Assembly: GCF_018802765.1 (NCBI RefSeq)
Contig: NZ_CP069163.1
Span: 62,001 to 126,000, forward strand
From: Paludibacterium sp. B53371
Lineage (GTDB): Bacteria; Pseudomonadota; Gammaproteobacteria; Burkholderiales; Chromobacteriaceae
Reading direction: 5' to 3'
DNA: 64,000 bases
A program made the translations under genes and the position numbers. The notes under the pieces are model-generated. The model did not search any database. It was not told the DNA's origin and saw only the letters and a program-made list of their open reading frames with translations. This document shows, one piece after another, positions 1,519 through 19,450 of this stretch (the first letter of the stretch is position 1; every line of letters starts with the position of its first letter).

Positions 1519-1658
1519 TTATTCAAATTCCACAACACGGGCATTAAGGGAACGGCGCCAGTGCCAGCTCGGCAGGGGGCGTCGGCTGATACCGCCTTGC
1601 AGCAGGTGTTCGATCCCCCCCTGGGCCACGGCATCTGCCCAGTCGGCGCCAGGGCAGG
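1519..1658 (-). pseudogene. Cytochrome P450-like gene, 3' fragment (split by the transposon)
   Basis: Read on the minus strand from the duplication at 1658-1654, this frame gives CPGADWADAVAQGG followed by about 30 more residues and a TAA at 1519. It is the C-terminal end of a P450, starting with the heme-ligand cysteine and the conserved following proline and glycine. The rest of the gene lies at 18463-19359 on the other side of the transposon. Joining the two with one copy of GCAGG gives an uninterrupted frame reading FGDGVHACPGADWA. The fragment has no start of its own except codons reached from inside the transposon left end. Confidence 0.93.
1654..1658. repeat. Target site duplication GCAGG, left copy
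   Basis: GCAGG stands immediately before the transposon terminal TGT (1659-1661). The same five bases stand immediately after the terminal ACA at the other end (18463-18467). Five-base duplications are the rule for Tn7-like transposons. Confidence 0.95.
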
Positions 1659-1864
1659 TGTGATCGGAACCATATCTTTGCCGTTCGGCAAGTTTATGCT
1701 TCCTGCCGACGCTCAAATCCGCTGATTTTTGCACCGTTTCTGTGCGTGGCATCTGTTGTTCCTCAAATTCCCTTTGCAAGACAAAGCTTTGGCCACGGCC
1801 CCACTCCGGCCAATTTCGGCAAGGTTATGCTTCCTTTTTTTGCCTGCGGCAAGGTTATGCTTCC
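1659..1864. repeat. Left transposon end with four TnsB-type binding repeats
   Basis: Four copies of an 18-bp motif close to CGGCAAGGTTATGCTTCC are present. L1 is the terminal copy, in inverted orientation (1665-1683). L2 (1686-1703), L3 (1817-1834) and L4 (1847-1864) are in the opposite orientation. L1 and L2 face each other across two bases and form a near-perfect palindrome of about 38 bp. The repeats are inferred to be TnsB sites, because they occur only at the two ends of this element and in multiple copies, as in Tn7. L3 and L4 are exactly 30 bp apart. Confidence 0.85.
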
Positions 1865-3242: not shown

Positions 3243-4532
3243 TCACCTCAGTGCATCGCGCCAGCCAAGATATGCCTGACGCAAATACGGCCGAAGCAAC
3301 GAGAGTCTGTGCCGGCGAAAAACCTCCCGTACTCGACGACCGCTGGGATACAAATCGTTGGATACGATCTCAGCGACAGCCTGTCTGCCCAGCGCAATCT
3401 CTTGCGACTGCGATACCCGTGTCTGCCTGCGTTGCCATGCTTTATGGCGCAAGCCCAGCTCGACAACCTGCTCAGGAAACCAATACTTTGCGTAGCTACG
3501 CGACACGCCAAGCTGACGTAGTAGCACGGAGACAGGATGTTGCCCCTGCTCGGTCGCCAGCAAGTCCTGCAGGCGTTGCCCCAGTTCGCTCAAGGACAAC
3601 GCCGATGAGCCGCGTGGCTTTAACGTCAGCAGACCGTCCGGCTTCTTCGGGCGCTCGACAGCTCGATCCCCCGAAAACAATTCCGCCACCGGCACATTCA
3701 ACGCCTCGGCCACCTGCAGCAACAGCGGAAACGCAGGCTTCTGCCGCTTGCTGCTCCAGCCACTGATCGCCTTATACCCCAGCCCCATCATCAATGACAG
3801 TCGTTGCATCTCGCCGTCTGACCAGCGCTCGGCTGCGTGCGTCAGGGTCAGCAGCAATCGGTCCAGCGAGTACGCAGCATCGAATGCCGCCGTGGATGTC
3901 ATGGACTGCAGCAACTGTGCCCAGCGAAGCTCACGAGGCGCAACCGTGGTCGATACCGCAAGCGAGGACACTGGCGCCAGAAAACCAAAACAGTGCGTGC
4001 AGCGCGCCTGTTCCGGGTAATAAGGGATGAAGTCCTGGGGACAATTGCACCACGGACAACGGCTCTCCAGCGGTCTGTGGTGCCGCAAACAGACACGGTA
4101 GTGCTCCAGGCTCCACAACAGCGGGAAATAACTTTCCTGCCCGTTCTCGCGCTGTTCTGCAAGACAAGCCGGACACCACCGCACTTCGTTGGCCAGCAGC
4201 CCTGGGCTTTGCGGTGGGATCACGCCAGACCATGGCAGCAGCGTCAGTTGCGCCAGATCGGGCACGGCCGTTAGCTGGCCAAGCCCACGTGCAAACGCTG
4301 CGGCATAGCGGCCGACACCGTTAAGGGTGCGGGCCTGATGACGAAAGAACGGCGCATGCGGCTGCACAGAGCCCTGAGCAAGCTGCGGCCAGATCAGCTC
4401 GCGCACCATCGGCCGCACTTCGACCTGGTGCGCACGGGCCAGGCGCACCAGATAGGAGACCAGGCTTTCGCGTTGTGCTCCAGGCCCCAGCAACGGCGGC
4501 AGGGCGAACAAGATAGAGCGAGGCGGGGTCAT
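3243..4532 (-). CDS. tniQ: TniQ/TnsD-like target-selection protein
   Basis: A 429-residue protein of the TniQ family, which links TnsC to the chosen target DNA in Tn7-like transposition. The N-terminal TniQ segment contains RESLVSYLVRLARAHQVEV. It is followed by a zinc-binding region with paired cysteines and histidines (RWCPACLAEQ, LRHHRPLESRCPWC, CTHCFGFL). The C-terminal 220 residues contain a Cro/XRE-like helix-turn-helix (LLLQVAEALNVPVAELFSGD) and further basic helices. This makes it longer than the minimal TniQ of Tn5053 or CRISPR-associated elements and shorter than Tn7 TnsD (about 508). A TnsD-like, DNA-reading role is therefore plausible. Its start overlaps the tnsC stop by 4 bp (ATGA), so it is the last gene of a tnsAB-tnsC-tniQ operon. 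The actual target site recognised is not known. Confidence 0.92.
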   Translation of the reverse strand: MTPPRSILFALPPLLGPGAQRESLVSYLVRLARAHQVEVRPMVRELIWPQLAQGSVQPHAPFFRHQARTLNGVGRYAAAFARGLGQLTAVPDLAQLTLLPWSGVIPPQSPGLLANEVRWCPACLAEQRENGQESYFPLLWSLEHYRVCLRHHRPLESRCPWCNCPQDFIPYYPEQARCTHCFGFLAPVSSLAVSTTVAPRELRWAQLLQSMTSTAAFDAAYSLDRLLLTLTHAAERWSDGEMQRLSLMMGLGYKAISGWSSKRQKPAFPLLLQVAEALNVPVAELFSGDRAVERPKKPDGLLTLKPRGSSALSLSELGQRLQDLLATEQGQHPVSVLLRQLGVSRSYAKYWFPEQVVELGLRHKAWQRRQTRVSQSQEIALGRQAVAEIVSNDLYPSGRRVREVFRRHRLSLLRPYLRQAYLGWRDALR

Positions 4533-5725
4533 TTGCCGCGCTCCTGCCCGGCAAACAGATCTAGGTTACCGCCGACTGCATCGCGCTGGGCGCGCCGGGT
4601 ACCGACCGTCCGCTTTTGTCGGGGCTTGCCGAAATACTGGTCCAGGCCCTCGCCTTCGCTGGCTCCTTGGTTTTTCATCTCCTTATGGTGCCGGGTCAGC
4701 ATGTTCTTGATCTGACCCAGCGAGATGTCGCGTAGCTGTCGTTCTCCTTCAAATGCCTCACTCAGGATAGTGGCTATCGAGCGGTTGTCATGGGCATGCC
4801 GTTCCACCCAATCACGATCGAGACAGGTACAGCCGGCACGCATTGCAGTTTCAACCGAGACATCCAGCCAACGCTTCAGAATGCCGACACAACCCGCCGA
4901 CTTGAGATAAAAAAACTCCACGGCCTCGGCCAGGTCGGGTGACACTTCGCACGGCAAAAACTTCAGGAAGGTATTCAGCGCTCCGGAGAACGCCTCGCGA
5001 TCGAAAGGCGTGCCCCAGTCATAACGCGGGAACTGCAAAATCCGGCTGCGCCGAATCAGCTGCGCACTCTGGTTACGGATTTCCTGCAAGTCGTAAGTGC
5101 CGACCAGGATGATGACAGCGTTGGTCTGGATCGACAGCGACTTGATCGTCTCGAACTGACTCCGCAGCTCCTTCGCATGGGCACCGAGCAGAATGAGGTT
5201 CGCTTCATCGACGATGATGTAGCGAACCTTGCGGTGACGGATGGCGCCCTCCACGGCGCGCTCCAGGCTGCTGGCGGTCGGGGCCTCCCGATGCAGGCGC
5301 ATAGGCTGGTCGAGATAGCGGAAGCTGTCCATGGCAAACGGTAACTTCATCTGCGGACTGCAACTGTCCAACTGATTCAGCAACCGGATATAAAAATCCT
5401 TCCAGTTAAACGCCTTGCACCCCGGCGAGACGGCGGAAAGGTGCACCACCGGAATATGGCCAGGATGAGCCTGCCGTGTCCCCTGCTCATGCTCAAGAAT
5501 GAATTGCTCCAACTTGTGCGCCAGGGTGGTTTTACCAACGCCGGTGGGCCCGGTAACAATCACCAGGTTGGCATGCGACTTGTTCCAGATGGCGTTCTTG
5601 ATTTCCTCGACGGCACGATCCATGTGCGGATGCCGTATGGTCTTTTTCAGAAACAGCTCCAGCTGAGCCTCCTGTGCAGCGGTCAGCGGGATCGATGTGC
5701 TGTGATGCGGGATAGGATTCAGCAT
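4529..5725 (-). CDS. tnsC: TnsC-like AAA+ ATPase, transposition regulator
   Basis: A 398-residue AAA+ ATPase. Walker A is GPTGVGKT at residues 59-66. Walker B lies in VRYIIVDEANLI near residue 175, followed by sensor-type segments (NAVIILVGTYDL). This matches TnsC/TniB, the ATP-bound filament or ring that carries the target-site signal from TniQ to the transposase. The C-terminal tail is basic (PRQKRTVGTRRAQRD), as expected for contacts with DNA or transposase. The start is 2 bp from the stop of tnsAB and the stop overlaps tniQ by 4 bp, so the three are translationally coupled. Confidence 0.93.
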   Translation of the reverse strand: MLNPIPHHSTSIPLTAAQEAQLELFLKKTIRHPHMDRAVEEIKNAIWNKSHANLVIVTGPTGVGKTTLAHKLEQFILEHEQGTRQAHPGHIPVVHLSAVSPGCKAFNWKDFYIRLLNQLDSCSPQMKLPFAMDSFRYLDQPMRLHREAPTASSLERAVEGAIRHRKVRYIIVDEANLILLGAHAKELRSQFETIKSLSIQTNAVIILVGTYDLQEIRNQSAQLIRRSRILQFPRYDWGTPFDREAFSGALNTFLKFLPCEVSPDLAEAVEFFYLKSAGCVGILKRWLDVSVETAMRAGCTCLDRDWVERHAHDNRSIATILSEAFEGERQLRDISLGQIKNMLTRHHKEMKNQGASEGEGLDQYFGKPRQKRTVGTRRAQRDAVGGNLDLFAGQERGK

Positions 5726-5727
5726 GA

Positions 5728-8343
5728 TCAGAGATCTCCATACACAGGTAGCACATCAGGCAGAACGTACGGAGCGAACGTGTCAGGAATATCGACAACA
5801 GGAGCCGGTTGAGGCAACGCAGATTGTAATGTCGCCTGATAAAGCGCCTCTTCGTCTTCGCGCAGCACACGGAAATACTCAGCAGAGGTCTTGGCATTGC
5901 GGCGGCGTTGCGTCTCCAGCCCTTTACGAAAGAGACGGAATGCCGCAGCGGTACAGCGCATCTCGCGCTCGGTGCGATAGGCAAACAGATGGGGCTGCTG
6001 GCAACGGCAGATGTGCCATTCGCCGTCGAGATGGGCATACACAGTCGACAAGTCAAACGGATCATAGCGAACCAATGCGTGCATCTCCGACAGGCTGCGC
6101 CGGCGAAATGCCTCGCACCAATACCAAATACCGAAGTGCAACACCCCGCGACCAGGGTGAATCATCGATTCGGTCGACCGTACTGCCGGCAGGCACTGAA
6201 TGACAAACTCCTTGGTGTAGCTCAGCCGCAGGTGGTGACGCTGACCAAACTCGAACAGTCCGGCTTCGTAGACAGACCGAGGAGAGGCTTGCAACGTTGA
6301 GTGCGGCGAAACCTCGTAAACCTCCTTCAGCCACCGCTCGAATTGCACTTCAAGCTGATCCAGCGTCCAGACCGCAAGGCGGCGCGGATCATGGGTGGAT
6401 GAGCAAGAGCGGGGATCTCGCAACGGCTTGGTATTGCCGCGCAGGTTGTGCCACAGCTGCTTGTTGAGCACACCAAACAGGCGCTCCATCACTGAGCCAA
6501 ACCGTGGAGAATGCGGCGGGCGGGTCTTCTTGGTCATGGCAAAGGAGGCCAGCAGAACTTCGAAATACTCGCTGCCAAACTCCTTGCCGCCGTCGACCAC
6601 AATGGTTGACGGTAGCCGCCCATGGCGCTGGACACAGTTTCGCACCAGCATCATGCAGGTGGTGAAGTTTGGCGGATCAAAAGTGAGGTAGTAGGCCAGC
6701 ACCATCCGCGAGTAGGCGTCGATCAACACCGATAGCCAGACACGACACGCGACAGGCTTATCCTCGGCATTGAAACGCAGCATCAGGTCGACCTCGGTAT
6801 GGTCGATGTGGGCGATATCGAACGGGCGCTCGCCATGGGGAGGAAAGCCGCCCTCACCGTCCCAAACCAACTCTTCCAGGGTGTACGCCGCGCGGCTGCC
6901 TTCGCGCAGGAGCTTCCCCTCATGCGGGCTGCTGACCAGACATCGTTCGCGCGCAAACGTCTTCAGGCTGGGGGGAGTTAATCCCTGCTCCTCACAGCAC
7001 AACAACAACTCGCCGTAGGCATTCTCGATGCTGACCTGGTTTACCGAGAAATAGTGAGTCCGCAGGACTTGGTGCATCAGCTCAATCACTGTAGCGTCTA
7101 TTTTGCGTTGTCGATTGCCACGCCGATCACGGTGATCAATCAAGCCGACAAAACCATTGCCGAGCGAGGCCTCAGCCTCTCTGAAACGTTTGCGGAAAGT
7201 ACGCAAGGTGCGGACACTCAGCGCCGTCTGCCGAGAGGCATCGTGCAAAATCTCCAGCCGCAGCTTGGCAGTCTCCAGCATCGCCGGAGAACTTTGCGCA
7301 ATGCGGGCAGCAAGCAATGACTCGCGTACGTCGCCTCCGTGCGCGGGCGCTGCGCCCTTTAAGTCTCCTCGAGCACAAAGCTCATTGACGGTTTCCCACG
7401 ACAGCGCCAGCAATTCGCCGGCGGCGGAAACCAGTTCGAGCTTGTTGCTCTGGCTACCGGCCACTTTCCACGACTGATCGTTCCAGACTAATCGAGTACC
7501 AGGCTCAAAGGATATGACGGCATCGACAGGAAGCCGGCCACGCGTCAGCGTATGGGTTCGAAGACAGTCGGCGGCCAACACATCACGATAAACCGACACG
7601 GCAGCCGGGTCGGCCAATGGCGCCGCGGACAGATCAACATAGAGATGCCCGTCCGCAATCAGCTGATAAACCGCGTCTGCCGGCAACGCGGGATCCGCGT
7701 GCAACAGCTCGTAAAGCGACCAGCATGCCTGCCGGGCAAAAAGCTTTGCCGCCAACAACCGCTGTGCATCCGTTGGCGCGGGCGCAATCTCAAGCAAGTA
7801 GTCTTCGAGAAAACGTAGATTTCGGGTGAGAATCCAATCCGTCTCTCCGCCGGCACGGATTCGATACCGCAGTCCCAACCGTGCAGCAAACGCCTCGCCG
7901 GGAGGGCTGAACCAGCCGCCATTCTCATAGCGGAAGCGCTCAGGATACTTGGCACTGAGTTTTCTCAGCTCCTGATCGTTCTTGCATTCCACCCAGCCAA
8001 CAAAATCTTCGGCAATCAGAAAATAGTCAGGCGTATGCGGAAACGCCACCTTGCGCCCGTTGCCATTGATGTAGCTCAGCTTGATGGGCTCAGGCTGGTC
8101 ATAGAACTCGTGTACCTTGGGATCGTGCTCCCACTCGTACAAGGCAGCCAGTTCATTGGTATGGCTCTCGGCCTGAATCACACACCTCATCTTGCGACTG
8201 GGGAATCGGCAAGACACATTGCCGATGCGGCTCGCAACCCGGCGACTGGGCTGCTGGTTACGGACACGCTGCACCACCTTGCAGGCCTGGCGTGACAATT
8301 GCAGCTTCAAACAAAACGTCGACAGTTCTTCTTCGTTCAACAT
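5728..8343 (-). CDS. tnsAB: TnsA-TnsB fusion transposase
   Basis: A natural fusion of the two Tn7 transposase subunits, 871 residues. Residues about 50-185 are a TnsA-type endonuclease domain of the restriction-enzyme fold, with an early glutamate (HTNELAALYEWE), the aspartate of HTPDYFL and the ECK motif of VGWVECKND. It would cut the 5' ends. The remainder is TnsB-like: helix-turn-helix segments, then an rve/DDE domain with Asp514 (IAHIDHTEVD), Asp584 (VVDGGKEFGS) and Glu620 (GSVMERLFG), then a beta-barrel and C-terminal region. All catalytic residues appear present, so cut-and-paste transposition is expected. The ATG at 8343 is chosen because GGAG stands 8 bases upstream. A longer frame from 8394 lacks such a site. 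Confidence 0.93.
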   Translation of the reverse strand: MLNEEELSTFCLKLQLSRQACKVVQRVRNQQPSRRVASRIGNVSCRFPSRKMRCVIQAESHTNELAALYEWEHDPKVHEFYDQPEPIKLSYINGNGRKVAFPHTPDYFLIAEDFVGWVECKNDQELRKLSAKYPERFRYENGGWFSPPGEAFAARLGLRYRIRAGGETDWILTRNLRFLEDYLLEIAPAPTDAQRLLAAKLFARQACWSLYELLHADPALPADAVYQLIADGHLYVDLSAAPLADPAAVSVYRDVLAADCLRTHTLTRGRLPVDAVISFEPGTRLVWNDQSWKVAGSQSNKLELVSAAGELLALSWETVNELCARGDLKGAAPAHGGDVRESLLAARIAQSSPAMLETAKLRLEILHDASRQTALSVRTLRTFRKRFREAEASLGNGFVGLIDHRDRRGNRQRKIDATVIELMHQVLRTHYFSVNQVSIENAYGELLLCCEEQGLTPPSLKTFARERCLVSSPHEGKLLREGSRAAYTLEELVWDGEGGFPPHGERPFDIAHIDHTEVDLMLRFNAEDKPVACRVWLSVLIDAYSRMVLAYYLTFDPPNFTTCMMLVRNCVQRHGRLPSTIVVDGGKEFGSEYFEVLLASFAMTKKTRPPHSPRFGSVMERLFGVLNKQLWHNLRGNTKPLRDPRSCSSTHDPRRLAVWTLDQLEVQFERWLKEVYEVSPHSTLQASPRSVYEAGLFEFGQRHHLRLSYTKEFVIQCLPAVRSTESMIHPGRGVLHFGIWYWCEAFRRRSLSEMHALVRYDPFDLSTVYAHLDGEWHICRCQQPHLFAYRTEREMRCTAAAFRLFRKGLETQRRRNAKTSAEYFRVLREDEEALYQATLQSALPQPAPVVDIPDTFAPYVLPDVLPVYGDL

Positions 8344-8610
8344 TTTCGGCACTCCTGTTTGCGGTGTATCGCCATTGCTGCTGCTCGCCTTCAAAGAGGG
8401 CGATACAGAGCTCTAGCGATCAACGGCCAATCGCTTCGGGTCAGAAAACAGGCGCAAAAAGCCCTACCGACCAAGCGATCAGATCAATGGAAAACAAGGA
8501 TTTAGCCCCGAAGGGCACAGGGAGGCCGACGGCCATCAATAGATATTGACAACCATCGTTAGGACGCCGAGAATCTGAGCATCAGGAGCGAAAACTGATG
8601 CAGTTTCTGC
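8344..8610. promoter_or_regulatory. Upstream region of the tns operon
   Basis: No gene is seen in this stretch between tnsAB and the AlpA-like regulator gene. It must carry the promoter for tnsAB-tnsC-tniQ. It contains short direct and inverted elements (for example GATCAACGG and CGATCAGATCAATGG), which are candidate binding sites for the AlpA-like protein. Exact promoter boxes could not be fixed by eye. Confidence 0.4.
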
Positions 8611-8921: not shown

Positions 8922-9204
8922 TCCATCCCCAATTGCCCTGCAGATTTGTGCATCTGCATGCAAAGAATTTTTGTCAACAGTAGGGTTGATTACATCACCA
9001 ACGGCCGCCAACAGCAAATGCTCTTTCAAATCAGCGACTTACATTAAATAATAAACATCAGATATAGCCTAACGAAAGTCATTTCCCGATCTTGAGTGCG
9101 TGATAACACATTGAAGAAAAATGACTTTCACCAAGAGACAACCACCTAAGCAGCAGAAAAAACTGTTGTTTACGCGGCCCTTTTGCCTGAAAGAAAATAG
9201 ATAC

Positions 9205-9882
9205 ATGGCAACGATCTACTTTTGCGGGGATCCGCACGGCAGATTCGACCACCTGATCCAGGTCGTCACACACGGCAAGCCGGATGCAATCATCCTGCTC
9301 GGGGATTTGACGCCAACTCAGCCATTGCAGGACGTACTGGCCCCGATCCTGGGATTGACGGAAGTGTGGTTTATCCACGGCAATCACGACACCGACTCAG
9401 AACCGAACTACGACCACCTGTTCAGTTCGGCACTGGCCGATAGGAATCTACATGGCCGTGTGGTGGAGATCGCCGGCGTGAGAATTGCCGGGTTGGGCGG
9501 CGTGTTTCGTCGACAAGTGTGGATGCCACCGGCAGCGCCCAGTTTTCAATCACCAGACGCATATTGTGCACAGTGCGGCCGCGGCAATCTCTGGCGCGGA
9601 GGACTTCCACGCAAGCATCGATCGACGATTTTCCCAGCAGATTTTGAGCACCTGAAAGGGCAACACGCGGATATCCTGGTCACCCACGAGGCGCCGAGCT
9701 GTCATCCTCACGGCTTCCAGGTCATTGATGACCTGGCGCGCGACATGGGCGTGACCATGGCGTTTCATGGCCACCATCACGATCATTTGGACTATTCCCC
9801 GTGCTGGGCGGATCTTGGCTTTCAGGCCTATGGCGTTGGGCTGCAGCAGATCACGGATAACAGCGGAGCGATCATCGGATAG
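9205..9882 (+). CDS. Calcineurin-like metallophosphoesterase
   Basis: A 225-residue protein with all metallophosphoesterase metal-binding blocks in order: GDPHGR near residue 8 (normally GDxHG), LLGDLTP near 38, FIHGNHDTD near 60, LVTHEAPSCHPHG near 160 and AFHGHHHDH near 190. A binuclear metal centre hydrolysing phosphomono- or phosphodiesters is expected. The substrate (nucleotide, protein phosphate or nucleic acid) cannot be read from sequence. The start MATIYFCGD is chosen because the family begins just before the GDxHG block. The upstream 28 codons of the frame look non-coding. It is the first right-half cargo gene, and its link to the other cargo is unknown. Confidence 0.85.
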   Translation: MATIYFCGDPHGRFDHLIQVVTHGKPDAIILLGDLTPTQPLQDVLAPILGLTEVWFIHGNHDTDSEPNYDHLFSSALADRNLHGRVVEIAGVRIAGLGGVFRRQVWMPPAAPSFQSPDAYCAQCGRGNLWRGGLPRKHRSTIFPADFEHLKGQHADILVTHEAPSCHPHGFQVIDDLARDMGVTMAFHGHHHDHLDYSPCWADLGFQAYGVGLQQITDNSGAIIG

Positions 9883-10023
9883 TCGCGAGGAACCTCAGTG
9901 AAGAGGTGGCCGTGGGCAGGCGGAGACAAGTCCCTCTTGGATGGTAGCCCGCCCTTGGCCGGTCTTGGATTTCAATGATGAGCCATCCCATATCGCAAAT
10001 CAATTCCGGCCCAAGCGATGCGC

Positions 10024-10587
10024 TCAAGGAGCAGAGCGAACCTGGTCAGATAGATATGCAGCCAGTTCGTTTTGAGTGCGGAACAGCGCTCTAAAACCCA
10101 GAAATGCAGAGATAGCCGGGCCAATGGCAAGAAGGGTCCAAAGCTGTAACCCGATTGCCCCGAATGTGACCGCGAAGTAGAGCACAGAAAAGAACAGCAG
10201 GGTTTTAACGAACTCTGCCCTCATCCCAGGTATCCGCACCGTCTGTCCCAGCAGGCCGAGAACGATCGCGATACCAGGCAAAATACCGAGTACAGGGATT
10301 GCACACGCAACGGTGGGCTTAAGCGATACAGCGGTGATCTCTTTCTCGGACAGAGAACGGATGGCTGGCGAATATAGCTGCCGGGTAGACTCGTTATAAG
10401 CGCGAAGAAGCTTGCCGTCCCGGGTGAAGAGCAATCGTACCTGATGGGCGGGCAAGAAGTTGCCGATCAGAGAGCCGAGGTTATACGGCACAGCCTCCTC
10501 GCCCTGTTGCAGCCATAGCGTCTCGCCCGACGTTAGAGTGCAGACACCCTCCTGCAAAGTGTACATCAACTGCCTGGCTTTCCCCAC
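10024..10587 (-). CDS. Uncharacterised membrane protein, 187 aa
   Basis: Not recognised. The N-terminal half (about residues 1-90) is soluble and beta-rich (TSGETLWLQQGEEAVPY, VRLLFTRDGKLLRAYN). The C-terminal half has two or three hydrophobic segments (AIPVLGILPGIAIVLGLLG, TLLFFSVLYFAVTFGAIG, WTLLAIGPAISAFLGF). The gene is divergent from the XRE regulator, with an operator-rich 140-bp region between, so it is probably controlled by that regulator. An internal start at MYTLQEG (7 codons later) is equally possible. Confidence 0.6.
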   Translation of the reverse strand: MGKARQLMYTLQEGVCTLTSGETLWLQQGEEAVPYNLGSLIGNFLPAHQVRLLFTRDGKLLRAYNESTRQLYSPAIRSLSEKEITAVSLKPTVACAIPVLGILPGIAIVLGLLGQTVRIPGMRAEFVKTLLFFSVLYFAVTFGAIGLQLWTLLAIGPAISAFLGFRALFRTQNELAAYLSDQVRSAP

Positions 10588-10644
10588 GAACGCCCCCTCA
10601 TCGCTAGACTGTTGCCTTTATATGCCGACAATGCTTCACTTATT

Positions 10645-10686
10645 ACAACCATATAGTCACTTATAGTTGTCATTTATGCAACTATA
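10645..10686. promoter_or_regulatory. Three-half-site operator of the XRE regulator (predicted)
   Basis: The half-site ACAACCATA (10645-10653), its reverse form TATAGTTGT (10662-10670) and the forward copy CAACTATA (10679-10686) follow each other at regular spacing of about 17 bp. The last two form a perfect 8-bp inverted repeat with a 9-base spacer. The site lies 40-80 bp before the XRE gene, in the region shared with the divergent membrane-protein gene. This is the layout of autoregulated controller proteins. Binding is inferred. Confidence 0.65.
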
Positions 10687-10727
10687 TAGCGTGGTTCGCA
10701 AGACGCGCAAAGCCGATGCTTTCCTCC

Positions 10728-10973
10728 ATGGGAAAGCAAAGCACACCACACGCCGCTCGGCTGATTTTTGCCAGGAATTTGCGCCAGGCAAGACGTTTGA
10801 AAGAAGTGTCGCAGGAAGCCCTTGCTCTGCAAGCAGGCCTCAGCAGAACCTACGTATCCGAGGTGGAGCGTGGGGAGAGGAATGTGTCAATCGACAATAT
10901 GGGGCTATTGGCGGATGCGCTCAAAGTCGATTTGAAAGACTTGCTGGATCCGAGTTTTATTAAGTCATTTTGA
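10728..10973 (+). CDS. Small XRE-family regulator resembling restriction-modification controller (C) proteins
   Basis: An 81-residue single-domain Cro/C1 helix-turn-helix protein: ARNLRQARRLKEVSQEALAL, then AGLSRTYVSEVERGERNVSI and LLADALKVDLKDLL. The recognition helix SRTYVSEVERGERN is the pattern seen in C proteins of type II restriction-modification systems, which are of this size. Such proteins bind operators at their own promoter and delay expression of the toxic partner. Here a DNA methyltransferase and a kinase/receiver pair lie downstream in the same cargo. The start MGKQSTPH is preferred over an upstream in-frame ATG 12 bases earlier on spacing grounds, with low certainty. Confidence 0.8.
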   Translation: MGKQSTPHAARLIFARNLRQARRLKEVSQEALALQAGLSRTYVSEVERGERNVSIDNMGLLADALKVDLKDLLDPSFIKSF

Positions 10974-11023
10974 TGACGATCTGAACTCACCAAAATCGAG
11001 CCAGAGATTCTAATAAGAGAATC

Positions 11024-11173
11024 ATGAAAACTTCATTAAAACAGCTTGTTGCAGCCAAAGTGCCGATAGGCCATTCATGCAATCATTGCGGCAGCAAACT
11101 ACCAACTAACAGTTTGGAGATGGCAATAAAGAGGAAGGTGACATCCGCCAACACTACACCCAAGAACTCTTAG
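11024..11173 (+). CDS. Possible small protein, 49 aa, with a CxxC pair
   Basis: An ATG-to-TAG frame with AAGAGA upstream encodes MKTSLKQLVAAKVPIGHSCN and continues HCGSKLP..., giving one CNHC motif. The second half of a zinc ribbon is absent, so it could be a gene remnant, a tiny DNA-binding protein or chance. It occupies the gap between the XRE gene and the kinase gene. The rest of the gap (11174-11408) shows no gene. Confidence 0.3.
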   Translation: MKTSLKQLVAAKVPIGHSCNHCGSKLPTNSLEMAIKRKVTSANTTPKNS

Positions 11174-11408
11174 GGCGCTGTTACGGGGTCGACTAGATCA
11201 ATGCTGATGCTCATCATGTCAGTTAGGATCTCAGCAGCCAGGTGCATCACAATGCCACGGTACCCAACAGATCCTCCACTAGATTTCGACTACGTTTCGC
11301 ACCAGCGATGCTGTGGACGTGAACAAGAAGAAAGCAACATAAAAAAATGCCATCAGGATACAATGAATACGGAAACAATAATGCTTGGATGAAAAGGCAA
11401 ACCGCCGA

Positions 11409-13967
11409 ATGAGTCAAGATCCGAATGATAAGTTAGCCATGAAAGATGAAGCCAGCAGCTCTCATCTAAGTATATCTTCCCACGTTGTTGTGCAGCTGGG
11501 GGCAGAGCTAGTCACCGACGTAGAGCAGGCGTTGCTTGAGTTAGCAAAAAATGCCTACGACGCAGACTCTGAAACTTGCGAAATCATCGTCGAGCCAGAC
11601 TGGGAAATTTCGCCCACGGATCCTGAATATGATCTGCTATTCCCTGATCGCAAAGATACGGCTGATCGTCAGAAGGAGAAAGTTGGACGTCTTCGCGTAC
11701 GCGATTGTGGACTTGGAATTCCTGCAGATGCGGTCAATCGTGGCTGGTTAAGAATCAGCGCATCATTGAAGCGTGCATCAGGGGAGCAGGCAAAGCAAAA
11801 AACAAAAAAAAATCGCACGCCTGTTGGTGACAAGGGGCTGGGCCGCTTAGCCACAATGAAAATTGGTACTGTTTTACGTCTAAAAACAGCGACTGAAGGT
11901 GAATCACAATGGCGCACAGTATCGTTTTCTTGGGCAGACTTCACGCCCGAGCGCACACTCGATCAGGTTCCTGTTTTTGAGGGTACCAATTCAGAGGATT
12001 TCGACGGTCCAGGCACAATTATCGAGATTATCGGCTTGCATGATCCAGCGCATTGGAACAATCCCATCTTTGTTGAGCGAGAATTAGTGCCTAATCTCTC
12101 TACTCTTATTAGCCCGTTCCAGTCGCAGGATAATTTTAGCATTACGGTTAAAATGAAGTCCCGCGTATTTGAACTCGAGACACTCCATGATGACGTTCTC
12201 AATCTTGCATCAGCAAAATTTGAATTCATATGGGACGGCAGTGAACTTTCTATGAAATCATGGATCGCACCGCCGCTATTTCGGGGGGTGGCAGGCGAAG
12301 AAGGGCAAGAGAAATTTGATTTGGTATTTAACGAAATTAATAAACCAAAGCTTTTATCATTTCTCGCCAATAAACCGCGACTCAGGGACCATAATATTGA
12401 CATTAAACCTTCAGATCCATGGCTCTTAAAATTTTCAGAAAAAAATCAATTCCAAACATTTCCAACAGACAAACAATACCCTGGGGCTATTAACCCTGGG
12501 CCATTCCATGCTGAAATATATTCTTTTATGTTCAATGAGGCAACAAAGAATAAACTTCAGCAAGCCGGGATGAGTACGCCACAAATGCAGTCAATGGCTA
12601 CTATAGCAATTTATCGTGATGGTTTCAGAGTTCGAGCTCAAAAGGACTGGCTACGCTTGTCAGAAAGCCAAACAAAAGGTGGTTCATTTTATGAGCTCCG
12701 CCCGACTAATGTCCTGGGTTTCTTTGCGCTATCCAATGAGCACAACAGTGGCCTTGTAGAAAAATCAGATCGAGAAGGCTTTGTAGATAATAGAGAGTTT
12801 CGTGGGTTCATGTCTCTAAGCCAGAGATGCAAATCTTATGCAAACAACATATTAGAAGCCACCAGAAAAACCTACAATGAGTTTGCTACAACTTTATTTG
12901 TCAACAACCCAATTCCACCAACATCGCATGCATTAACGAAGCAACTAAAAGATGCAGAGTCAGAGTCGAATCAAAATATCCGAAGGGCGAAATCAACTTT
13001 ATCAAAAGCACTGAAAGAGCTTACGGAGGCACGTACTACGCTTAACCTTAAGCATGAGCTCTCTGTCGATGTTCGCTCGACGATGTCGACTCCTTTAGAG
13101 CACGCATCAACAGATTTAATTAAGTCTTTGGAGGCCCTCCAATTAATCGAAGAGAAGCTTGTAGATCACAGTCGTCTTTCAGAGGCAATGCATATCGTTC
13201 GTCTTTCTGATGACGAGCAGAAGTACCGTCTTATAGAAGCCGCGGCTGTTGGCCTTTCCGCAAGGTCATTCTCACACGAATTACATCACTATGTTCGACA
13301 GTTGCGTGATGGTGTTGCGCTCGTAGTTGACCGCAACCAGAACTATCGCGATGAAAAAATCCGTGAAGCAACAAAGATGCTAAGCAGCGTCACGAGAGAG
13401 CTAGCAAAGCTTGTTGCTACCATCGATCCTCTCCTACCAGGGAGTCGCTCGCTAAAAGAAAAAATACAATTGCATGAGTTCTTACGGAAATATGTAGAGG
13501 CACGAAAATCGTTCGCTGAAACGAAAGGTGCTGACCTGATATTCAATACAGTACCTACTAGCTTAGATCTTGAAGTGAAATTCAGTCGAGCGAGGCTCTT
13601 GCAAATTGTAGAAAACCTTTTCAACAATAGCTTGTATTGGGTGACACATGGTCCATTATCGCATGGACGGGAGCGAAGAATTGTCATCGAAACAACAGAA
13701 ACCGGATTTATTTGGTACGACAACGGGCCAGGAATCAGCCCCTCACTTGAATCATCGATCTTTGAGCCTTTCGTATCTGACAAGCCGGCTTCAGAAGGTC
13801 AGGGGTTGGGCCTGCACATTGTGTCGACATTCCTTGAAGCTGAACGTTGCTCAATACAGCTCTCAGCCGAACGAAATGAAATCGGAAGACGCTTTAAGTT
13901 TATCGTCACTCTCAGCGGTGCCACAACAGCCCATCAACAACCAAAATTGTTTGCAGGAAATGACTAA
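11409..13967 (+). CDS. Double-GHKL protein: Hsp90/MORC-like ATPase domain fused to a histidine-kinase core
   Basis: An 852-residue cytoplasmic protein. Residues about 35-220 form a GHKL ATPase of the Hsp90/MutL/MORC type: N-box ALLELAKNAYDAD, G1 box VRDCGLGIP and G2 box GDKGLGRLA. An S5-like segment with IYRDGFRVRAQKDW follows near 400-460. A coiled-coil-prone stretch (about 505-600) leads to a dimerisation/phosphoacceptor-like helix with RSFSHELHHYV, where His623 sits as in HisKA H-boxes. A second GHKL domain (about 725-835) is a classical histidine-kinase ATPase: VENLFNNSLYW, WYDNGPGI, IFEPFVSDK and GQGLGLHIV. No membrane segment or signal peptide is present. The stop overlaps the start of the receiver-domain gene by 8 bp, so the two are made together. 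The likely role is a sensor kinase in a defence or stress pathway. The start could also be a TTG at 11385 or an ATG at 11439. Confidence 0.85.
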   Translation: MSQDPNDKLAMKDEASSSHLSISSHVVVQLGAELVTDVEQALLELAKNAYDADSETCEIIVEPDWEISPTDPEYDLLFPDRKDTADRQKEKVGRLRVRDCGLGIPADAVNRGWLRISASLKRASGEQAKQKTKKNRTPVGDKGLGRLATMKIGTVLRLKTATEGESQWRTVSFSWADFTPERTLDQVPVFEGTNSEDFDGPGTIIEIIGLHDPAHWNNPIFVERELVPNLSTLISPFQSQDNFSITVKMKSRVFELETLHDDVLNLASAKFEFIWDGSELSMKSWIAPPLFRGVAGEEGQEKFDLVFNEINKPKLLSFLANKPRLRDHNIDIKPSDPWLLKFSEKNQFQTFPTDKQYPGAINPGPFHAEIYSFMFNEATKNKLQQAGMSTPQMQSMATIAIYRDGFRVRAQKDWLRLSESQTKGGSFYELRPTNVLGFFALSNEHNSGLVEKSDREGFVDNREFRGFMSLSQRCKSYANNILEATRKTYNEFATTLFVNNPIPPTSHALTKQLKDAESESNQNIRRAKSTLSKALKELTEARTTLNLKHELSVDVRSTMSTPLEHASTDLIKSLEALQLIEEKLVDHSRLSEAMHIVRLSDDEQKYRLIEAAAVGLSARSFSHELHHYVRQLRDGVALVVDRNQNYRDEKIREATKMLSSVTRELAKLVATIDPLLPGSRSLKEKIQLHEFLRKYVEARKSFAETKGADLIFNTVPTSLDLEVKFSRARLLQIVENLFNNSLYWVTHGPLSHGRERRIVIETTETGFIWYDNGPGISPSLESSIFEPFVSDKPASEGQGLGLHIVSTFLEAERCSIQLSAERNEIGRRFKFIVTLSGATTAHQQPKLFAGND

Positions 13968-15765
13968 ATTCCATGAGCTAATGTCGCAGCTAAAAATTAG
14001 CGCGGTTTACTGGGTCGACGATGAAAATGCAGAAGGTAGCGAACTCAGTTTGGAGAGACTGATTGATTGCTTCATCAGTGCTCTAATTGGGGCCTCAGCT
14101 CTGGAAGCTAAATCCATGATGGGCATCTTTCTCAAGGAGGAGGAGCTCAGGGGAAAAGCAAACAGCTTACTGCGAATCCTGAAGAATGTAGACGAAAGTG
14201 ATGAATCAAAAATTGAGCGTGTTACACCAATCCTACAGGAATTGACAGATGGAATTAAAGATGCAGCAGCAGGCCTAGCTGGTGAATTGAGAAAACTTCC
14301 AGGGCCACTCGGTGATGCAGAGCGCGATGCACTAAAGACTTTATTCAGTGGTGCAGAAACCACATGGGCATGGAATACCCTGTCATTTACGAAGTGGGAA
14401 ACAGAAGGAAAACAGATACTTCGTCAGCATGCCGGGGATGAGTCAATTCTTCTCGTCGTAGACCTTCAGAATTCAAGCGAAAAAACAGCAACAAATGGTC
14501 AAACCGTACTAAATGATGTAGCAACGGCTAACATTGATCGAAAAGCCTGTCATTTGATTGTTCTCACATCAGAGTGCGATATCGCAGAGGAATTTCGGAG
14601 AGGGCGACGACTTACAAATGATTACTTCGTCGATAAACTTCAGCGAATTCCCGTATTTGCATTGTCTAAAAATAGATTCACCAAGTCTATTGAAGAATTG
14701 CCGGAGCGAATGATAGATGCGTTCGTGAATGCATTGGAGCGTGCAAATCTGTCTTTGGTTCAACTTGAATTTGCCGAATTAATGCGAGATCACTTCAAAC
14801 ATTCTATTGAACGTGCATTCAGTGCACTAGATACTGTAACTATTGAAGAATTAGCATTTGCAGTAACACGTACATCTCATGAAGAAGGAGCATCTGAAAC
14901 TGAGACTTTAGTGAGGATTATGAACATTGCGCAGCGAGAGGAATTTAAGCTTGCCATATCCAGCAGTTCAATCATTCGCTCTACTATTTTAAAGCTACGC
15001 AAAGCGGCCAACACTCCCATTGAGAAAAAAGATCTTGAGTCAGATGGCGAGCTGTTAAAACTTCGCTGTGCGGAGCTTTACGACAAACCAGAGGTCATAA
15101 ACAGCCTCTTTAGCCCACTTTCGCCTGGCGATTTATTTATTCTCACAGAAGAAATCCCTGTACTTGATGAAAACAACGTGCGCACAGGAGATATTGAGAC
15201 TGTGGAGAAACTTTACGTACTCGTTGCCAATGCTTGTGACCTGATGTTACGGAAGGAAGGAACTCGACGTTTGGATACAGGGATGATGCTATGTGTTGAC
15301 GAACTACCCGCCACCTCTGCTGACCGACAATTCAGATTTGAACTCCAACATTTGGACTTTACTGGCATCAAGGGGGCCTCAACTAGGCAAATTGAGCTTC
15401 GTGCATATAAATCATTACCTCTCTCTCTATTAGATCTATGCTGGACCAATACTGATGGTCAATGTACATGGCGCATGTTTGAAAAAACGCTCTATGAAAA
15501 TCTTCTTGGATCGCAAAAATTGCGGTTGGAGATACTTAATACCGAGTATGCAAGACTTACAAGAGATGATCTCTTAAGCATGGCACGCCCAATGAGAATT
15601 GGCGTTACCATAGAAGAAATTGAAGAAGATAAAATATCCTCTGTTACGTTTTCGGCACGTAGGGTTGGACGCCTCAGTGATCAATATGCCGCCCAACTCG
15701 TCAGCCGCTTTATGGGGGTATTTGGACGACCTTCTGAAGAACATGACTTCAGCAAGGCGATCTGA
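13960..15765 (+). CDS. Partner protein with a split receiver (REC-like) domain, 601 aa
   Basis: The ATG at 13960 overlaps the kinase stop (ATGACTAA) and has CAGGA just upstream. Residues 15-24 (AVYWVDDENA) carry the acidic pair Asp20-Asp21 of a receiver domain. After an inserted, mostly helical segment of about 120 residues, the fold resumes with SILLVVDLQNS, putting Asp168 at the phosphoacceptor position, then HLIVLTSECD with Thr203 and PVFALSKNRF with Lys237. All five hallmark receiver positions can therefore be assigned. Residues 240-601 are an unknown output region, including PLSPGDLFILTEE and LYVLVANACDLMLRKEG. No nuclease or DNA-binding motif was recognised. The natural reading is a response partner phosphorylated by the upstream kinase. 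Confidence 0.8.
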   Translation: MTKFHELMSQLKISAVYWVDDENAEGSELSLERLIDCFISALIGASALEAKSMMGIFLKEEELRGKANSLLRILKNVDESDESKIERVTPILQELTDGIKDAAAGLAGELRKLPGPLGDAERDALKTLFSGAETTWAWNTLSFTKWETEGKQILRQHAGDESILLVVDLQNSSEKTATNGQTVLNDVATANIDRKACHLIVLTSECDIAEEFRRGRRLTNDYFVDKLQRIPVFALSKNRFTKSIEELPERMIDAFVNALERANLSLVQLEFAELMRDHFKHSIERAFSALDTVTIEELAFAVTRTSHEEGASETETLVRIMNIAQREEFKLAISSSSIIRSTILKLRKAANTPIEKKDLESDGELLKLRCAELYDKPEVINSLFSPLSPGDLFILTEEIPVLDENNVRTGDIETVEKLYVLVANACDLMLRKEGTRRLDTGMMLCVDELPATSADRQFRFELQHLDFTGIKGASTRQIELRAYKSLPLSLLDLCWTNTDGQCTWRMFEKTLYENLLGSQKLRLEILNTEYARLTRDDLLSMARPMRIGVTIEEIEEDKISSVTFSARRVGRLSDQYAAQLVSRFMGVFGRPSEEHDFSKAI

Positions 15766-15960: not shown

Positions 15961-17319
15961 CTACTCTTTTCTCATGATAATAGTAACTTCTTCTGTCATT
16001 GTGGCAGATATGCTATTTTTATTTGGCATGCGCTTATATGGTATGTCGCGCCCTATTCTAGCAACATCCGCAAAGCCGCAAAAATTAAAAACTTCCGACA
16101 CGATTTCTGCAAGAGGAACGACATAACCACCGGTATTGCGATTTCCTAATGTCCATACGGCATAGCCAGATTGCTTAACGTAACTACCAGTAACTTCTAT
16201 AGATTTTGCCAAGTCATACGTAAAGGCTGCCATGCGCTTTGCGTGCCCTTGCGTTGATTTTTTTTCCCATAGCATCTTATATATGGACCAAAACGACGGA
16301 CTCATCTCTGAAAGAGACTCCGCTTTTTCATTAGCATTTCGAATTGACCCACCTAGACTCCGCGCATCTATCTCGTGAGTGGAACACAAAATATCATTCG
16401 ATATCGCTTTATCGATATCGCACAAATCAATCCATTGCAGAGGCAAGTAACTAAACTGACCATATGGGACAGTCGTTGCATTATCACCATATGGTGGAGA
16501 CGTAACCATAATATCAATTTTCTTGGCAAGCCCTGAAATCCGACTAAACATAGCTGAATTATGCATCTTAATTTTGACCGCAGGTTGATATACGCCATTA
16601 GTCAAGATTTCAGCAAGAACTGCTGCTTGCTCTATGTATGATGAAATATTATTTTCAAGAATGGCACCATACTTACGACACACCTCTTTAAAATCAAGAG
16701 GAGCATCAAGAGGGTCTCGTAGATGAAGTTTGAATGTAGATGTACGGGAATTACTAACTTGACGAACAAGTTCGGCAAGAGTTAACCAAAAGAAACGACG
16801 AGCCCAAAGAGAGGACTCTTGACGTATAGCTCGCCGGATCTTTGACAATTCAACAGCAATCTCGCGAGTAAACCATTTGTCCATCCCAGGGAAGTCTGCC
16901 TCGATTTTTTTCCCAAAGTCTAAGCTAATCCGGGTGACGAGTTCATCTGCTTTATCCTGTAAAGCAGTTACATAAAATGGTCCTGATTTAACCTTACTAG
17001 CGAGAACAGCGAGCGGATTGATATCAAACCCAACAAAGTTTGCCCCCCTCCTCATGGCTTCGGTAAGGACGGTACCAGAGCCAACGAACGGGTCGAAGAC
17101 AGTAGCGTGCCCCTTCATCGTAGAGAGGAGAATGTCCATGATCTCCCCCTGCATTTGAGGAACCATCATGGCGGGGTACTGGATCAAGGCATGCGCAGCG
17201 TCACGCTTCGCTCGCCCTCTGAAGGACCAGTAAGTTGAGTCTGACGTAGTCTTGCTGCTCAGAGCAGCCCTGATTTGTGCGTCAGCTTGGAATGGTATAA
17301 GTGTACTGTTTTCGGCCAT
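15961..17319 (-). CDS. DNA methyltransferase with TSPPY motif (amino-methylating)
   Basis: A 452-residue SAM-dependent DNA methyltransferase. Motif I, the SAM-binding loop, is FDPFVGSGTVLTEA at residues 75-88. Motif IV, the catalytic loop, is TSPPYGDN at 273-280. About 185 residues separate them, which may include the target recognition region. TSPPY is most often seen in N4-cytosine enzymes, but N6-adenine cannot be excluded. No restriction endonuclease gene was recognised in the element. The gene is convergent with the kinase/receiver pair. It may mark self DNA for a system in which the pair or another cargo gene provides the attack, or it may be a solitary methyltransferase carried by the transposon. 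Confidence 0.85.
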   Translation of the reverse strand: MAENSTLIPFQADAQIRAALSSKTTSDSTYWSFRGRAKRDAAHALIQYPAMMVPQMQGEIMDILLSTMKGHATVFDPFVGSGTVLTEAMRRGANFVGFDINPLAVLASKVKSGPFYVTALQDKADELVTRISLDFGKKIEADFPGMDKWFTREIAVELSKIRRAIRQESSLWARRFFWLTLAELVRQVSNSRTSTFKLHLRDPLDAPLDFKEVCRKYGAILENNISSYIEQAAVLAEILTNGVYQPAVKIKMHNSAMFSRISGLAKKIDIMVTSPPYGDNATTVPYGQFSYLPLQWIDLCDIDKAISNDILCSTHEIDARSLGGSIRNANEKAESLSEMSPSFWSIYKMLWEKKSTQGHAKRMAAFTYDLAKSIEVTGSYVKQSGYAVWTLGNRNTGGYVVPLAEIVSEVFNFCGFADVARIGRDIPYKRMPNKNSISATMTEEVTIIMRKE

Positions 17320-17539: not shown

Positions 17540-18025
17540 TTAGTTGGTATTCTTGGTTGATAGACACATAGTGTCGCTAGCACTCGAGTGACTGGCACGT
17601 GTCTGATCACCATTCTCCAATCCATATAGAATTGGGATTACACTCGCGACAATGAACAACCCTGCAGCAAGCAATATAGCAACTGCTTTCCGAACAAGCC
17701 CTCTTTGTTGCCTTATCAGAGCAGTATGCTCCTTCACGACCAGCCAATACAGAATACCTCCTGTCAACAGAAGAACACCACCTGCACCATAAGCAATGTA
17801 GGGTTTGACCCCCTTTGCTGAACCGATGAATGCCAGTCCCCAGCAGATGATACTCAAGTCCGCTGACAGACCAATTATTAGCCTAACAAACTGAGACCAG
17901 CTGACGGGGGGAACATCATCACTGGAAAAGTCCGTCCTGGGGACATGCACAAAAGGGGCCGACAAGGGACGAAGCAAGCTCATGACAGTTCCAATATAAA
18001 AAGTGGAATCAAACACTTTTGGCAT
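17540..18025 (-). CDS. Uncharacterised membrane protein, about 150-161 aa
   Basis: Not recognised. It has four hydrophobic segments in the order FVRLIIGLSADLSIICWGLAF, IAYGAGGVLLLTGGILYWLV, then after a basic loop (RQQRGLVRK) AVAILLAAGLFIVASVIPIL. An internal ATG at 17983 (MSLLRPLSAPF) may be the real start. It is the last gene before the right end of the transposon. Small membrane proteins are common as effectors in defence cassettes, but nothing in the sequence ties this one to the kinase/receiver pair. Confidence 0.55.
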   Translation of the reverse strand: MPKVFDSTFYIGTVMSLLRPLSAPFVHVPRTDFSSDDVPPVSWSQFVRLIIGLSADLSIICWGLAFIGSAKGVKPYIAYGAGGVLLLTGGILYWLVVKEHTALIRQQRGLVRKAVAILLAAGLFIVASVIPILYGLENGDQTRASHSSASDTMCLSTKNTN

Positions 18026-18138: not shown

Positions 18139-18191
18139 CCCGCGGCAAGGATATGCTTCCGCCCCGCGGCAAAGTTATCCTTCCGATGACA
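18139..18191. repeat. Internal copy of the right-end module (R1-R2 plus GATGACA)
   Basis: Two 18-bp TnsB-type repeats (18143-18160 and 18167-18184, 24 bp apart) are followed by GATGACA. The same arrangement, with the same 24-bp spacing and the ending GATTACA, forms the true right terminus 271 bp further on. The two 53-54 bp modules agree at roughly nine positions in ten. It looks like an older or duplicated right end. Confidence 0.85.
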
Positions 18192-18410
18192 GAAGGTCTT
18201 AATCTTAGCGTTCATCCAACAAGCCCCAATCCGGAATGATGCTGATCATATTTGGCATCGGTAATCCTGGATGGTAATGGCCACAATGGGCACCGAGCAG
18301 TCCTGTGTTGACGATGAAAACAGCAACTCCGGCCAAACAGCCACACAAAACCTCCTAAGTATCCAAGCTCTTGAACGGCCCCGACAGGCATAGACTGCCC
18401 ATGCAGCATT
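18192..18410. other. Spacer between the two right-end modules
   Basis: About 220 bp without a supported gene. A minus-strand frame of 65 codons exists but has no recognisable features. The segment is what would have been outside the element if the internal module had once been its terminus. Confidence 0.35.
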
Positions 18411-18462
18411 CCCCGGCAAGGTTATGCTTCCACCCCGCGGCAAAGTTATGCTTCCGATTACA
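18411..18462. repeat. Right transposon terminus (R3-R4 plus GATTACA)
   Basis: Repeats R3 (18414-18431) and R4 (18438-18455) are in direct orientation. The element ends with GATTACA at 18462, just before GCAGG. The last 25 bases are the inverted counterpart of 1659-1683. Confidence 0.92.
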
Positions 18463-18467
18463 GCAGG
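18463..18467. repeat. Target site duplication GCAGG, right copy
   Basis: Exact copy of 1654-1658, directly after the terminal ACA of the transposon. On the coding strand of the P450-like gene it is CCTGC, covering the end of an alanine codon and the heme cysteine codon TGC. Confidence 0.95.
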
Positions 18468-19359: not shown

Positions 19360-19450
19360 TGGCGGCTCCTGATGAATGTGTTGCAGGGACAAGATAGGGC
19401 TAGGCCGGACCGGATGCTTCGCTTACCATCGAAATATGGAAGAAGACTGG

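Follow-up and report, generated by a model that had tools for sequence, protein, structure and literature searches.

A candidate modification-guarded defence trio with kinase and receiver parts on a Tn7-like element of Paludibacterium sp. B53371

What would a histidine kinase with a MORC-like ATPase do beside a receiver protein and a DNA methyltransferase on a transposon? In the 64,000-nucleotide stretch of Paludibacterium sp. B53371 analysed here (contig NZ_CP069163.1, positions 62,001 to 126,000; the window), a gene for such a kinase is followed by genes for the receiver protein and the methyltransferase within a Tn7-like element. The initial annotation proposed the first two genes as a candidate new defence system. 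The pair is indeed conserved, and a third part, the methyltransferase, had been missed; because the methyltransferase belongs to the module, the right edge of the finding moves to 17319. We propose that the three genes form a modification-guarded defence module gated by a phosphorelay, a reading to which we give about an even chance.

11409..13967, + strand: gene for a GHKL ATPase joined to a histidine kinase, 852 residues (open reading frame (ORF) call, Pfam, sequence search of the PDB, conservation, model)
13960..15765, + strand: receiver gene, 601 residues (ORF call, conservation, model, fold search)
15961..17319, - strand: TSPPY-type DNA methyltransferase gene, 452 residues (Pfam N6_N4_Mtase 2.4e-9; PADLOC MTase_II 1.5e-116)

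The kinase and receiver genes are two AT-rich ORFs that share 8 bp (13960-13967), just as annotated, and the G+C content is 41-47% across the pair region versus 54-68% per kilobase in the window beyond 18 kb. The methyltransferase gene lies tail to tail with the receiver gene, with 195 bp between their ends. We take the TSPPY motif to suggest N4-methylcytosine, although the base is not readable from sequence.

Conservation of the three genes

In plasmid relatives from Rhizobium etli and Hymenobacter monticola, a methyltransferase homologue is located immediately upstream of the kinase gene. This prompted a search of the species-genome collection in which the methyltransferase alignment was the sole query, and we examined the best 80 of 88 relatives, counting as a partner any match of at least 250 residues and at least 150 bits among ORFs of at least 250 residues. 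The methyltransferase gene was accompanied by both the kinase and the receiver gene in 65 of the 80 loci, so that the two families paired in the initial annotation do co-occur. The order was methyltransferase, kinase, receiver on one strand in 59 complete loci, tail to tail like the window in 5, and receiver, methyltransferase, kinase in 1. As for the remaining 15 loci, five had the kinase gene and then the contig end, one (L086) had remnants, and nine had neither partner (one of them, L053, being cut short). Some partners were short or late-starting (e.g. in L029, L051 and L064) and possibly represent broken genes or frame errors.

Other collections were searched from either end of the trio. 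On viral contigs, the methyltransferase-first search found the kinase in 4/4 and the receiver in 3/4 (one contig was cut), and the receiver-first search found the kinase in 3/3 and the methyltransferase in 2/3 (the third was cut inside the kinase gene), with two contigs common to both searches. Both partners were present in 2/2 plasmid records found receiver-first, and in the class samples the receiver-first search returned only the centre genomes and L061 (G880 is the same case and was not counted independently). The receiver family was found in 2/398 genomes of the window's phylum (its own genome and the chance-level G722), 2/395 in the class of L054 and 1/394 in the class of L066, centre genomes included, and a single-sequence receiver scan of 369 genomes of the window's own class returned only its own genome. 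The weak receiver match in G722 (E 4.9e-4) was rejected as chance, as no kinase or methyltransferase was found in the surrounding 18 kb (L112). Single-sequence scans gave no match either in viral contigs, where the kinase or receiver served as query, or in phages, where the receiver did.

The pairwise-distance matrices of the three proteins correlated with r values of 0.84, 0.86 and 0.94 (0/2000 permutations; n=63), showing that the three proteins have been inherited together. By the submitters' titles, the rows of the kinase tree span ten phyla (4/63 rows carry no group). The rows group by phylum with several breaks, such as Pseudomonas dryadis beside Arthrobacter; these repeated breaks are not proof of transfer. 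The trio is rare yet kept together across ten phyla. Clustering of 591 neighbours by blastp revealed no fourth conserved gene (no cluster in more than 6 loci), and no cognate endonuclease was recognised in the trio by Pfam or fold search or recurred among the neighbours. What the trio shares with Type II restriction-modification (R-M) is a dedicated DNA methyltransferase, as predicted from its sequence.

In L086 (Ancylobacter tetraedralis), a truncated methyltransferase is in frame with the C-terminal part of a receiver protein (9563-11827), and no kinase gene was found in the locus. This fusion resembles the relic of an internal deletion in which the kinase and the receiver domain were lost, and was not used as evidence.

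Kinase and receiver proteins and a proposed mechanism

11520-11936, + strand: HATPase_c_3 domain at the kinase N-terminus (residues 38-176; Pfam E 2.7e-11)
13275-13277, + strand: codon of His623 in the kinase gene
13590-13913, + strand: HATPase_c domain at the kinase C-terminus (residues 728-835; Pfam E 1.2e-14)
14461-14463, + strand: codon of Asp168 in the receiver gene

The upstream protein was annotated as a MORC/MutL-type GHKL ATPase combined with a histidine-kinase core, and Pfam, the PDB sequence search and the model agree. The core occupies residues 571-838, the C-terminal third of the protein, in the PDB sequence search. The kinase model (alignment of 62 sequences; mean predicted local distance difference test (pLDDT) 83, predicted template modelling score (pTM) 0.65) resembles MORC2 with DNA, HtpG, MutL, SMCHD1 and the topoisomerase subunit 1mx0 over about 500 columns in Foldseek, and the kinase cores of CpxA and of HK853, the latter from a structure that includes its regulator, over some 240 columns. 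The Foldseek output gives no ranges, and halves were assigned to matches from lengths, Pfam and the PDB sequence search; the kinase-core match was placed C-terminally because that search gives residues 571-838. His623, Asn736, Asn740, Asp771, Gly797, Gly799 and Gly801 are kept in 70/70 kinase rows, and Glu44, Asn48, Asp51, Asp99, Gly101 and Gly103 of the N-terminal ATPase in 66/66 lettered rows, with four rows gapped.

The receiver-like domain and large output region of the annotation are also borne out by the receiver model (pLDDT 84, pTM 0.77; 61 sequences), in which a receiver (residues 1-240) is followed by a helical middle and a C-terminal mixed alpha/beta output part (residues 391-588). 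The receiver fold is split by a helical insert of about 100 residues after strand 1 (residues 31-130), and Asp20/Asp21, Asp168, Thr203 and Lys237 are at the ends of strands 1, 3, 4 and 5, respectively. The fold search of this model in the PDB gave no match at E 0.001, and its top match was the receiver RCP1 (E 0.059, probability 0.99). The annotated hallmark residues proved well kept: among 63 receiver rows, Asp20, Asp168, Lys237 and Cys426 are present in all 63, Asp21 in 59, and position 203 is Thr in 47 and Ser in 16. Together with the kinase rows, these counts show conservation of the two ATP sites and of the His-Asp set. In the output region, Gly390, Asp391, Phe393, Cys426, Arg431, Gly434, Gly500, Arg568 and Arg590 are invariant across 61 rows.

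Searches for the identity of the output region returned little. The receiver protein had no match in PADLOC, NCBIfam (E 1) or PHROGs and two matches only in Pfam (E 0.037 and 0.11), both below the family cut-offs; 61 receiver members matched no consistent Pfam family at E 0.01, with single matches to unrelated families in three; and profile and consensus sequence searches of the output region gave nothing notable. The best match of the receiver model in a viral-structure library was a PemK-like protein (E 0.028, probability 1.00, root-mean-square deviation 14.5), and CcdB stood at rank 21 in the PDB fold search (E 0.72, probability 0.51). We treat this PemK-like or CcdB resemblance of the modelled output region as a lead only.

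The defence module that we propose would work as follows. The methyltransferase would mark the cell's own DNA, and the kinase would use ATP and its MORC/MutL-like GHKL and transducer half to clamp DNA and read whether the mark is absent. Unmarked foreign DNA would switch on the histidine-kinase half, which would autophosphorylate at His623 and hand the phosphate on to the receiver protein at Asp168. Once phosphorylated, the receiver would free the output region, comprising the helical middle and the C-terminal alpha/beta part with its invariant cysteine, which would act as the effector, either by attacking the invader or by halting the cell. Of all parts of this mechanism, the output fold is the least secure. 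Phosphorelay is used for anti-phage defence by Detocs, a system that to our knowledge has neither a GHKL clamp nor a methyltransferase; the PADLOC scan gave no Detocs match, the presence of a Detocs model in its library being unverified.

The kinase also resembles GHKL proteins of restriction systems. Like paraMORCs, it has an N-terminal GHKL domain with a transducer, intact ATP motifs (Glu44 and Asn48 in 66/66 rows) and MORC2- and MutL-like predicted folds, and paraMORCs are described in PMC2292703 as mobile GHKL-transducer proteins beside methylases that belong to predicted restriction systems. The tested defence protein VcSduA, a GHKL-nuclease protein of the Shedu type, likewise has an N-terminal GHKL domain and transducer and is mobile, according to PMC12137116. 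The kinase protein further matches the GHKL part of the BbrUII/HgiDII family weakly (E 1.8e-12, 46.6 bits against an NCBIfam cut-off of 550). These likenesses would suit a restriction complex that clamps DNA with the GHKL protein and contains the receiver protein as a structural or nuclease subunit, the kinase and receiver parts regulating assembly with no relay. However, nearly all rows keep the phosphorelay residues, for which a purely structural role would have no need; fold, profile and consensus searches found no nuclease fold. We consider such a complex unlikely, while leaving it some weight. Unlike paraMORCs and VcSduA, the window's kinase has a histidine-kinase core as its C-terminal part and its supposed effector in a separate protein, and the DUF4263 nuclease of VcSduA had no Pfam match in the kinase or receiver protein at E 10.

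Relatives beside other DNA-modification genes

The word new in the initial annotation was too strong. HEF_HK/Response_reg_2 pairs (PF19191 and PF19192), in which HATPase_c_3, a histidine-kinase H-box and HATPase_c are encoded next to a receiver-like gene, were published beside type II R-M genes in 2021 (PMC8011034). In common with the window's pair, they have two HATPase domains flanking an H-box, an adjoining receiver gene with the Asp-Asp, Asp, Thr and Lys set, a C-terminal Cys-Asp motif, DNA methylases nearby and a patchy distribution. Membership of the window's pair in these families was nevertheless rejected for want of a Pfam model match: the kinase alone had no match to PF19191 at E up to 10, the receiver had none to PF19192 at E 10, none of 61 receiver members had one at E 0.01, and the window's own genome gave no PF19192 match. 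PF19192 occurs in 10/398 genomes of the window's phylum, with a kinase and a C5 methylase in 10/10 of the loci and Vsr also in 5, whereas the partner in the window is a TSPPY methyltransferase. In a profile comparison, the part common to the window's receivers and those of the PF19192 type was the C-terminal motif only (55 columns, E 2.8e-6, probability 88%). The window's proteins are a distant branch of the HEF_HK/Response_reg_2 architecture, and their kind is not wholly new.

PMC8011034 speculated that such pairs exert signalling control over a methyltransferase or R-M system, so that the pair would set the expression or activity of that system and not be an effector. Classical two-component logic and the DNA-modification genes near the pair in the examined loci fit that idea. 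We nonetheless hold it to be very improbable for the trio, where Pfam, the model and the fold search give the receiver no recognisable DNA-binding output and no endonuclease recurs beside the trio to be controlled.

The defence module that we favour gains a wider setting from plasmids. The kinase search matched 36 plasmid records, and the eight examined comprised two trios, one locus (L005) with Vsr and a C5 methylase, and five more distant loci (L004 and L006-L009). L004 has an FtsK-like gene only. In L006-L009, DUF4007 occurs with PAPS-reductase, large-ATPase or cysteine-desulfurase genes beside the kinase-receiver pair, and PMC12839542 equates DUF4007, PAPS-reductase and the large ATPase with SspB, SspD and SspC, respectively. 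Ssp-like phosphorothioation genes are therefore beside the pair in 4/5 distant loci (Rhizorhabdus, Polaromonas, Devosia and Acinetobacter). The Ssp-linked kinases align to the window's over the whole length at 22-25% identity, and their receivers have 235 columns in common with the window's (E 6.8e-9 in a single comparison, probability 96%); these receivers are just 11-15% identical to the window's, and their mark is, by gene content, a phosphorothioate and not a methyl group.

With C5, TSPPY and Ssp-like neighbours, one kinase-receiver architecture thus occurs with three kinds of DNA-modification genes. In our reading, the pair may be a phosphorelay-gated sensor-effector arm that can be exchanged between modification-based defences. 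It is possible, though rather doubtful, that one module built on a MORC-like-clamp kinase and a receiver serves TSPPY methylation, C5 methylation and phosphorothioation alike, and fires an effector, perhaps of the CcdB/PemK type, through His-to-Asp transfer. According to PMC8092258, 2,211 of 2,678 sspBCD loci have no known restriction partner, and the pairs of L006-L009 are a candidate partner for Ssp loci without SspE and SspFGH. If the proposal is correct, the published but unexplained family of PMC8011034 would gain a function, the lack of a known restriction partner in most sspBCD loci would gain a candidate explanation, and there would be a simple three-gene system for testing the question. 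Two-component phosphotransfer, known mostly for environment sensing and gene control, would then also separate self from foreign DNA and fire defence.

Several observations weigh against the defence module. No defence or phosphotransfer assay of any member was found in the literature, and the output region had no significant match to a known nuclease or toxin in sequence, profile or fold searches. In 8/80 loci with at least 5.6 kb available downstream, the methyltransferase occurs without the pair; one of them is L010, the closest relative of the window's methyltransferase (58%). According to PMC12421847, other restriction endonuclease genes share the region of the Acinetobacter Ssp genes, and L009 also encodes, a few kb off, a HAMP-kinase and response regulator of the conventional sort. 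Because of these neighbours, the remark in that paper on the Acinetobacter locus may not mean the kinase-receiver pair, an ambiguity that makes the reading of one module for three marks slightly less probable. A description of the trio was not found in the literature searched, which lacked most subscription papers and the bioRxiv collection; this is weak evidence of absence.

The trees add a further caution. The window's methyltransferase falls in a clade of 12 (Shimodaira-Hasegawa-like approximate likelihood ratio test (SH-aLRT) 96) with L015 and Vibrio, Enterovibrio and Colwellia loci, and its kinase in a set of 7 rows (SH-aLRT 99) with L035, L015, L044 and three Vibrionaceae kinases. However, the window's kinase has the longest branch of the kinase tree (2.53), so that its placement is unsure, and the methyltransferase that accompanies the nearest kinase, L035, branches elsewhere in the methyltransferase tree. 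The two trees fit joint descent in part only and do not establish complete co-inheritance of the window's own trio.

Within the same 12-row methyltransferase clade, one GHKL protein of about 690 residues replaces the pair in L017, L026, L030 and L037. L023 and L029 carry both, the GHKL protein coming after the pair.

L017, 11398-13464: gene for the GHKL protein of about 690 residues
L026, 3723-5813: the same
L030, 11399-13471: the same
L037, 3679-5751: the same
L029, 15926-18073: the same, after the pair

The two copies tested (L026 and L029) are weakly like the GHKL part of BbrUII/HgiDII restriction enzymes, and receivers of the window's family are absent from the whole L030 genome. A simple swap of partners is at odds with L010, which has neither the pair nor this protein. 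In L010, L022, L024 and L031, the methyltransferase family is accompanied by another methylase and an HD-domain protein, followed in the last three by a protein of about 400 residues and a gene weakly similar to QueC/QueH (tested in L024); this is possibly another defence or DNA-modification set.

The Tn7-like element and its surroundings

The Tn7-like carrier that had been annotated is present: the trio is carried in a 16.8-kb element with TnsA/B, TnsC and TniQ genes, 25-bp inverted ends at 1659 and 18462, and a 5-bp target duplication, the TnsA-like domain scoring below its curated cut-off.

1654..1658: target-site duplication GCAGG, left copy (identical 5-mer outside both ends)
1659..1683, + strand: left terminal inverted repeat, 22/25 identical to the right end
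1666..1864: four copies of a 17-nt end repeat, the outermost inverted versus the other three; probably TnsB-site-like
3243..4532, - strand: TniQ-like target selector (Pfam TniQ E 1.8e-17)
4529..5725, - strand: TniB/TnsC-like AAA ATPase (Pfam AAA_22 E 1.6e-15, TniB E 2.8e-15)
5728..8394, - strand: transposase with TnsA-like N-terminal and TnsB-like rve domains (Pfam rve 2e-10; TnsA-like N 3.5e-4)
10716..10973, + strand: XRE-type small regulator upstream of the kinase gene (NCBIfam and PHROGs HTH matches)
18144..18455, + strand: four copies of the 17-nt end repeat
18438..18462, - strand: right terminal inverted repeat
18463..18467: target-site duplication GCAGG, right copy

The inverted ends are the sole such pair spaced 5-40 kb within the window. 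The 17-nt repeat has 8 copies in the window versus 0.1 expected (at most 3 mismatches) and 11 genome-wide (at most 2 mismatches); the three further copies, 2.6 Mb away at 2680383-2682071, are perhaps a relic or the end of a related element. The TnsAB gene matches only itself in the genome.

Selfish R-M systems work by combining a methyltransferase with a toxin-like partner, and the Tn7-like carrier of the trio has intact ends. The trio might be an addiction or stability module, in which the kinase-receiver pair would harm cells that lose methylation, so that the mobile element is retained. These features are, however, compatible with defence too, and the trio occurs in varied genetic settings, with proteins similar to TnsAB near just three of the other loci (L026, L050 and L060). 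We regard this addiction reading as quite unlikely, and retain the defence module as our proposal.

The XRE regulator was rejected as part of the module, similar small proteins being found in just 2/65 complete loci, 2.3 and 6.9 kb off. Other cargo of the element comprises a 331-aa protein (2094-3089), a calcineurin-like phosphoesterase (9121-9882) and two small proteins (10024-10587 and 17540-18025), neither of which had a Pfam match above its curated cut-off. In a descriptive sample, taken without a control set, of 130 of the 207 eligible neighbours of complete trios, the matches among the first 25 of 116 Pfam and of 97 PADLOC families included phage integrases (6), rve transposases (3), TnsE (2), N6 methylases (2) and HNH_2 (2), with single matches to reverse-transcriptase-type and other defence families. 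The right end of the element lies inside a minus-strand ORF (18355-19392), which has no Pfam match at 1e-3 and part of which we take to read like a cytochrome P450 haem loop near the junction; the insertion may thus have broken a host gene.

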